Positions 47,340-49,295 of a stretch of DNA of 64,000 bases are shown piece after piece; positions within the stretch are counted from its first letter, which is position 1; the number at the start of each line of letters is the position of its first letter. The stretch comes from Allocoleopsis franciscana PCC 7113 (GTDB lineage Bacteria; Cyanobacteriota; Cyanobacteriia; Cyanobacteriales; Coleofasciculaceae): assembly GCF_000317515.1 (NCBI RefSeq), contig NC_019738.1:5358001-5422000 (forward strand). The letters run 5' to 3'. Made by a program: the position numbers and the translations under genes. The notes beneath the pieces were generated by a model. The model was given only the letters and a program-made list of their open reading frames with translations, was not told the DNA's origin and searched no databases.

Positions 47340-47405
47340 GTTTTTCCTGACGCCCTCATAAGAACTCCGTATCAGGTAATAGAAATCCCGATACGGACAT
47401 CTGCT
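47340..47405 (+). promoter_or_regulatory. Duplicated leader element, copy A (hairpin before the RGSGR peptide)
   Basis: The 69-nt block from GTTTTTCCTGA at 47340 to the ATG at 47406-47408 matches the block at 47861-47929 at 47 of 69 positions without gaps, by hand count. It contains TCCGTATC (47366-47373) and GATACGGA (47390-47397), a perfect 8-bp stem. The only SD-like bases, GGAC at 47395-47398, lie mostly within the right arm, so the hairpin could mask ribosome binding. It could equally be a DNA operator. Confidence 0.65.
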
Positions 47406-47498
47406 ATGAGCATTTACACCTGTATTTCTTACCAACTCATCTCAGTTGACACCCATAAAGACAACAACAAGTCTCCACATCGTGGGAGTGGGCGCTAA
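47406..47498 (+). CDS. PatS-like 30-residue peptide ending in RGSGR
   Basis: ATG 47406, TAA 47496-47498. The peptide starts MSIYTCISYQLISVD and ends KSPHRGSGR-stop. RGSGR at the very C-terminus is the pentapeptide of Anabaena PatS that binds HetR and blocks its DNA binding. The N-terminus is only mildly hydrophobic, unlike PatX. No ATG, GTG or TTG exists upstream in frame before the stop at 47325-47327. hetR itself starts 880 bp downstream on the same strand. The leader is shared with the small ORF at 47927. Sequence and motif are direct observations; expression and HetR binding are inferred. Confidence 0.72.
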   Translation: MSIYTCISYQLISVDTHKDNNKSPHRGSGR

Positions 47499-47860: not shown

Positions 47861-47926
47861 GTTTTTCCTGAGCCTATAGTTTTAAGTCCGTATCAGTAAG
47901 TAGACGCTCTGATACGGACTTGCCCT
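47861..47926 (+). promoter_or_regulatory. Duplicated leader element, copy B (13-bp hairpin)
   Basis: Second copy of the element at 47340. AAGTCCGTATCAG (47884-47896) and CTGATACGGACTT (47909-47921) form a perfect 13-bp stem with a 12-nt loop, ending 5 nt before the ATG at 47927. TCCGTA starts 40 nt before the ATG in both copies; it resembles, with one change, the DIF1 word TCCGGA reported upstream of patX genes. Confidence 0.65.
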
Positions 47927-48124
47927 ATGCGTAGCTCCTCTTTGTTCTTTTTTTTGTTAAGTTTTTTAATAGCTTCACTCTCTTTTGATTCTGGGCGGAT
48001 AGCCTCCGGCTCATCGGCTCTCCTCGAATCAGCCAGTGTCACTCAACTACTAGCGGCTCAAACCCAAACTCACGGAAACCCACGCCCTGAGCCGGGTAGC
48101 AAACGTCGGAGCTTCTACCAATGA
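47927..48124 (+). CDS. Small exported peptide upstream of hetR, PatX-like candidate
   Basis: 65 codons. The N-terminus is a strong signal peptide (SSLFFFLLSFLIASLSF), then a Ser/Ala-rich part with a likely cleavage near LLAAQ, and the tail HGNPRPEPGSKRRSFYQ. PatX proteins are small, have a hydrophobic N-terminus and an RGSGR motif, and co-occur with hetR. Here the motif position would read PGSKR, matching at G, S and the last R only. Gene position (257 bp before hetR, same strand), size, export signal and the shared leader support a PatX relationship; the core motif does not match exactly. A 6-bp AACCGA/TCGGTT hairpin follows the stop. Confidence 0.6.
   Translation: MRSSSLFFFLLSFLIASLSFDSGRIASGSSALLESASVTQLLAAQTQTHGNPRPEPGSKRRSFYQ

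Positions 48125-48332: not shown

Positions 48333-49295
<963 letters not shown>

Follow-up and report, generated by a model that had tools for sequence, protein, structure and literature searches.

A conserved leaderless RGSGR peptide gene upstream of hetR in Coleofasciculaceae, probably a derivative of patX

A 30-codon ORF upstream of hetR in Allocoleopsis franciscana PCC 7113 is probably a functional patX derivative that has no signal peptide, which we call mini-PatX. It lies in a 64,000-nucleotide stretch of that genome (here, the window), for which a preliminary description had reported a short ORF ending in RGSGR-stop upstream of hetR. Translation confirms this: the frame encodes MSIYTCISYQLISVDTHKDNNKSPHRGSGR followed by a stop, its last codons being RGSGR-TAA, and a gap of 882 bp separates the stop from the hetR ATG on the same strand (Table 1). 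No Pfam model matches the ORF. The absence of a signal peptide, also claimed in that description, is borne out by the lack of a hydrophobic core in the copies scored. The best 12-residue Kyte-Doolittle value is 0.62-1.30 in the four family copies scored and at most 1.37 in all leaderless copies, against at least 1.87 in signal-bearing PatX copies, and no in-frame start upstream of the ORF could add a hydrophobic core. The suspected non-heterocystous host agrees with the family, in which the relatives are Moorena, Symploca, and Coleofasciculus.

Table 1. Features of the patX-hetR region, in window coordinates.
Feature	Position	Strand	Description
DIF1-like box TCCTGA of mini-PatX ORF	47345..47350	+	61 nt before ATG
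Inverted repeat, mini-PatX leader	47361..47402	+	arms 47361-47376 and 47387-47402
mini-PatX ORF	47406..47498	+	30 aa, ends PHRGSGR-stop, no signal peptide
DIF1-like box TCCTGA of proximal patX copy	47866..47871	+	at -61
Inverted repeat, proximal-copy leader	47884..47921	+	perfect 13-nt arms
Proximal patX copy	47927..48124	+	65 aa, signal peptide kept, motif degenerate (PGSKR)
hetR	48381..49295	+	Pfam Peptidase_S48 and HetR_C; 540 bits to PDB 3qod

Conservation in close relatives, which the preliminary description had proposed to look for, is found. Among HetR-anchored loci drawn from the family and the order, an ORF of the same length occurs in four other genomes: one of the same genus (G001), Symplocastrum torsivum (L032), and two Coleofasciculus MAGs (L034 and L048), in each case in the same order relative to hetR. 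All five ORFs are exactly 30 codons long and end in PHRGSGR-stop, with no frameshift or change of length, and the C-terminal HRGSGR is invariant. Variation within the PHRGSGR block is confined to third positions, of which six out of seven differ among the genomes; the 14 first and second positions are constant. That six variable columns among 21 would all be third positions by chance has a probability of 7/54264 (p ~1e-4). The stop codon switches between TAA and TGA, and the middle of the peptide is almost free to change across the five genomes. The comparison of the window with G001 alone reveals no extra constraint (91.4% identity in the ORF, 91.3% in intergenic DNA), so the argument for selection rests on the wider set. 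The chance expectation of an RG[ST]GR-stop on the same strand of the 1104-nt intergenic region is ~9e-5 under a mononucleotide model. Given this expectation, the conservation across genomes, and the promoter box described below, a chance ORF can be ruled out, and by sequence comparison the ORF is a conserved coding gene. The hetR tree does not place the five genomes as one clade and does not reject a single clade (p-AU 0.25); on this evidence, a single origin of the gene within the family is neither supported nor rejected.

The flanking sequence and the N-terminus of the ORF resemble those of patX. The DIF1-like box is one base from TCCGGA, a variant that, together with its spacing, is common to the PatX genes of the family, and TCC[GT]GA lies at -59 to -65 in almost every patX gene and leaderless copy examined (in L034 a run of N masks the position of the mini-PatX box). 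The leader and its inverted repeat also match the patX leaders of the family, the repeat reading TCCGTATCAG...CTGATACGGA in the window. This repeat may be an operator or an RNA hairpin. The leader is predicted to fold strongly as RNA in this family but weakly in several other patX genes, so a hairpin is not a general feature of patX. In the leader of the proximal copy, the window and G001 differ in the repeat by one compensatory change, T-A to C-G. The five mini-PatX ORFs share their first codons, M[SR][IL]Y, and their linker with the PatX of the same family, and alignment to PatX indicates that the signal-peptide core and the segment behind it are missing, the frame ending right at the motif; the aligner put the first residues of mini-PatX after the gap, and the M-[RS]-I-Y start was matched to the PatX start by eye. 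Such an arrangement would result if patX had been duplicated and the copy had lost about 33 internal codons in frame. What stands of the PatS-type peptide proposed in the preliminary description is a real, conserved gene, linked to hetR, whose leaderless product ends in RGSGR-stop. Its descent is from patX and not from patS, as indicated by the spacing of the promoter, the leader, the first codons, and the linker. Nor is an RGSGR-stop end peculiar to PatS, since HRGSGR-stop also closes many signal-bearing PatX proteins of the order.

All five genomes carry a further, signal-bearing patX-like ORF between mini-PatX and hetR, which had been overlooked. The motif of this proximal copy reads PGSKR in the window and G001, PGSGR in L032, PASPP in L034, and RGARR in L048, and the gene has a DIF1-like box of its own in four of the five genomes, L048 being without a recognisable one. 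The last 27 codons of the window and G001 copies differ at six synonymous and no nonsynonymous sites, and because change there is only synonymous, the proximal copy of the window does not look like a pseudogene. In place of RGSGR it carries PGSKRRSFYQ, which might be a peptide signal of another kind. Fifteen other genomes of the family, which are related and so do not amount to fifteen independent observations, each have one PatX that combines the signal peptide with RGSGR. With RGSGR lost from the signal-bearing copy in 5/5 mini-PatX genomes, the two features of PatX are split over two genes.

Elsewhere in the window genome, there is one further in-frame H-RG[ST]GR, in an 82-codon open stretch that has no signal peptide and does not stop after the motif, and none of the E/D-RG[ST]GR sites read has a signal peptide or a stop right after the motif. 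A loose pattern allowing other residues before the motif yields no more matches than its control, so the search covers chiefly H, E, and D at that position. Searching the genome with PatX protein turned up a third patX-like gene, unlinked and signal-bearing, at G000:C1:2607677 (L195), with the motif PGCGRR; the sister species G001 has it too (L194), and in both the signal peptide is kept and the motif continues as PGCGRRD.

Mini-PatX probably acts on HetR in the manner of PatS, though it descends from patX. The gene would be transcribed from a DIF1-type, HetZ/HetR-responsive promoter, and its peptide, having no signal, would stay in the cytosol. With the C-terminus already at the motif, one N-terminal cut would free HRGSGR, which is expected to bind the HetR hood and release HetR from DNA. 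The window HetR keeps R223, E253, E254, D256, D270, and D278, which the PatS6 study (PMC4649674) either reported or mutated, and these intact contact residues would permit inhibition. HetR might thus be inhibited in the producing cell, with the peptide possibly moving to neighbours, as is thought for PatS-derived peptides. DIF1-type transcription would complete a negative feedback loop like that of patS and patX in Anabaena (PMC7377430), and would do so without the export or PatP processing that PatX needs in Nostoc. PatX is exported and then processed by PatP, and its export in Nostoc is reported to be essential for activity (PMC12756182), which counts against our reading of mini-PatX. In Leptolyngbya, the effects of PatX did not seem to depend on HetR (PMC11298460), which leaves the target in non-heterocystous strains uncertain.

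Several other explanations of the ORF can be weighed against a functional leaderless patX derivative. The almost unconstrained middle of the peptide, and an identity to G001 no higher than that of intergenic DNA, would fit a decaying relic of patX, that is, a duplicate that lost its signal peptide, is drifting, and is still visible through the kinship of the genomes. We consider this unlikely, because motif codons change at synonymous positions only, frame, length, and stop are kept in five genomes, promoter box and leader are retained, and it is the intact signal-bearing neighbour that lost the motif. The ORF could instead be a leader ORF that controls the downstream patX copy or hetR by being translated, its product being immaterial, as its upstream position on the same strand and the stable hairpin predicted in the leader in this family might suggest. 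Such a role is quite improbable: selection acts on the peptide motif, four of the five genomes have a DIF1-like box and leader belonging to the proximal copy itself, and the two ORFs lie several hundred bases apart in most of the genomes.

We give equally little credence to the idea that mini-PatX is still exported, through a signal that is weak or non-classical, and functions like any other PatX: its first residues and promoter are indeed those of PatX, but no copy has a hydrophobic core, and there is no upstream start to supply one. Shortness, the lack of a signal peptide, and RGSGR-stop would fit a true ortholog of PatS, whether inherited or taken over from heterocystous cyanobacteria. The box, however, stands at patX spacing, whereas the patS start point in Anabaena is at -580 (PMC7377430), and the leader, first codons, and linker are patX-like; promoter position and flanks together lead us to reject PatS orthology as exceedingly improbable.

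A functional leaderless derivative of patX may not be peculiar to this family. A hydrophobicity and promoter scan, together with pattern searches that covered 389 genomes of the order, recovered four further genomes with leaderless RGSGR-stop peptides at patX promoter spacing (L076, L189, L041, and L247): MRIYICLSQSRSLSIDILPHRGSGR in G078 (L076), MQNYTPINAIHASGVDNEDLIPLNRHRGSGR upstream of one of two hetR copies in G331 (L189/L199), and, upstream of hetR, MLTSITVRSVSSLDLAIIYSSTSMSFNRGSGR at L041 and MQTYTPIALLTPQKGDLSPERGSGR in G328 (L247). The L247 peptide ends in ERGSGR, identical to PatS6. Each of these cases is a single genome, several of them draft assemblies, and their apparently independent origin is judged from their scatter over families and genera and not from a tree. 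Other departures from a single PatX and hetR were also noticed. The two hetR copies at L199 form a tandem pair, 74% and 72% identical to the window HetR. PatX proteins with several RGSGR repeats, resembling multi-copy peptide precursors, occur in Symploca and Halomicronema (L035, L036, L137, L050, and L051), and a signal-bearing PatX-like protein upstream of hetR in G022 (L143) has four RASGR repeats instead of RGSGR. In another family, a tandem patX pair (L123 and L124, f2 g62) has KRGDGRREN or KPGDGRREN at the motif of its second copy.

By our count, leaderless conversion would have occurred in about five lineages, one with a peptide ending in ERGSGR like PatS, and PatS-like leaderless peptides can arise from PatX, it seems more than once. 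As a tentative proposal, about which we are close to evenly divided, secreted PatX may repeatedly have lost its signal peptide and so become a cytosolic inhibitor of the PatS type. In the Coleofasciculaceae lineage, the ancestral gene would then have come apart into two, one for a leaderless RGSGR peptide and one for a conserved secreted partner whose motif is altered, and the PatS of heterocystous cyanobacteria may have arisen likewise. The preliminary description went too far in suggesting that a PatS-type peptide here would change where the inhibitor arose: for filamentous cyanobacteria without heterocysts, RGSGR peptides have already been described under the name PatX (Khudyakov et al. 2020, PMC7761841; PMC12756182), and mini-PatX is a variant of these. 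Its conservation in a leaderless form suggests that export is dispensable. It offers a natural experiment on the possible evolution of a leaderless inhibitor such as PatS from a secreted one, and makes cell-autonomous versus intercellular inhibition of HetR directly testable. We did not find a conserved leaderless PatX with a motif-less secreted partner in the PatX literature searched, a search that left out Elhai and Khudyakov 2018, reportedly the founding PatX paper. A survey of PatX would overlook a conserved derivative of this kind, which has no signal peptide.

Among the closest known systems, PatX has in common with mini-PatX a DIF1-like box about 60 nt before the ATG, the leader, the first codons, the linker, HRGSGR, and linkage to hetR in the family. 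PatX has a signal peptide and is roughly 55-90 aa long in most relatives, whereas mini-PatX has none and is 30 aa long; in the closest single-copy relatives PatX runs several residues past the motif, whereas mini-PatX stops directly. Unlike PatX, mini-PatX is paired with a signal-bearing copy that lacks the motif, and maturation by PatP would not be expected of it, as the signal peptide is absent. PatS is likewise short, leaderless, and terminated at RGSGR, and a presumed action on HetR is common to both. However, the PatS promoter lies far upstream and the mini-PatX box is of patX type, the PatS lineage is heterocystous and the mini-PatX lineage is without heterocysts, and the sequence before the mini-PatX motif is PatX-like, as judged by alignment against PatX and not against the PatS of Nostocales. 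HetN has the RGSGR motif too, but internally, in a ketoacyl-reductase-like protein rather than in a 30-aa peptide.
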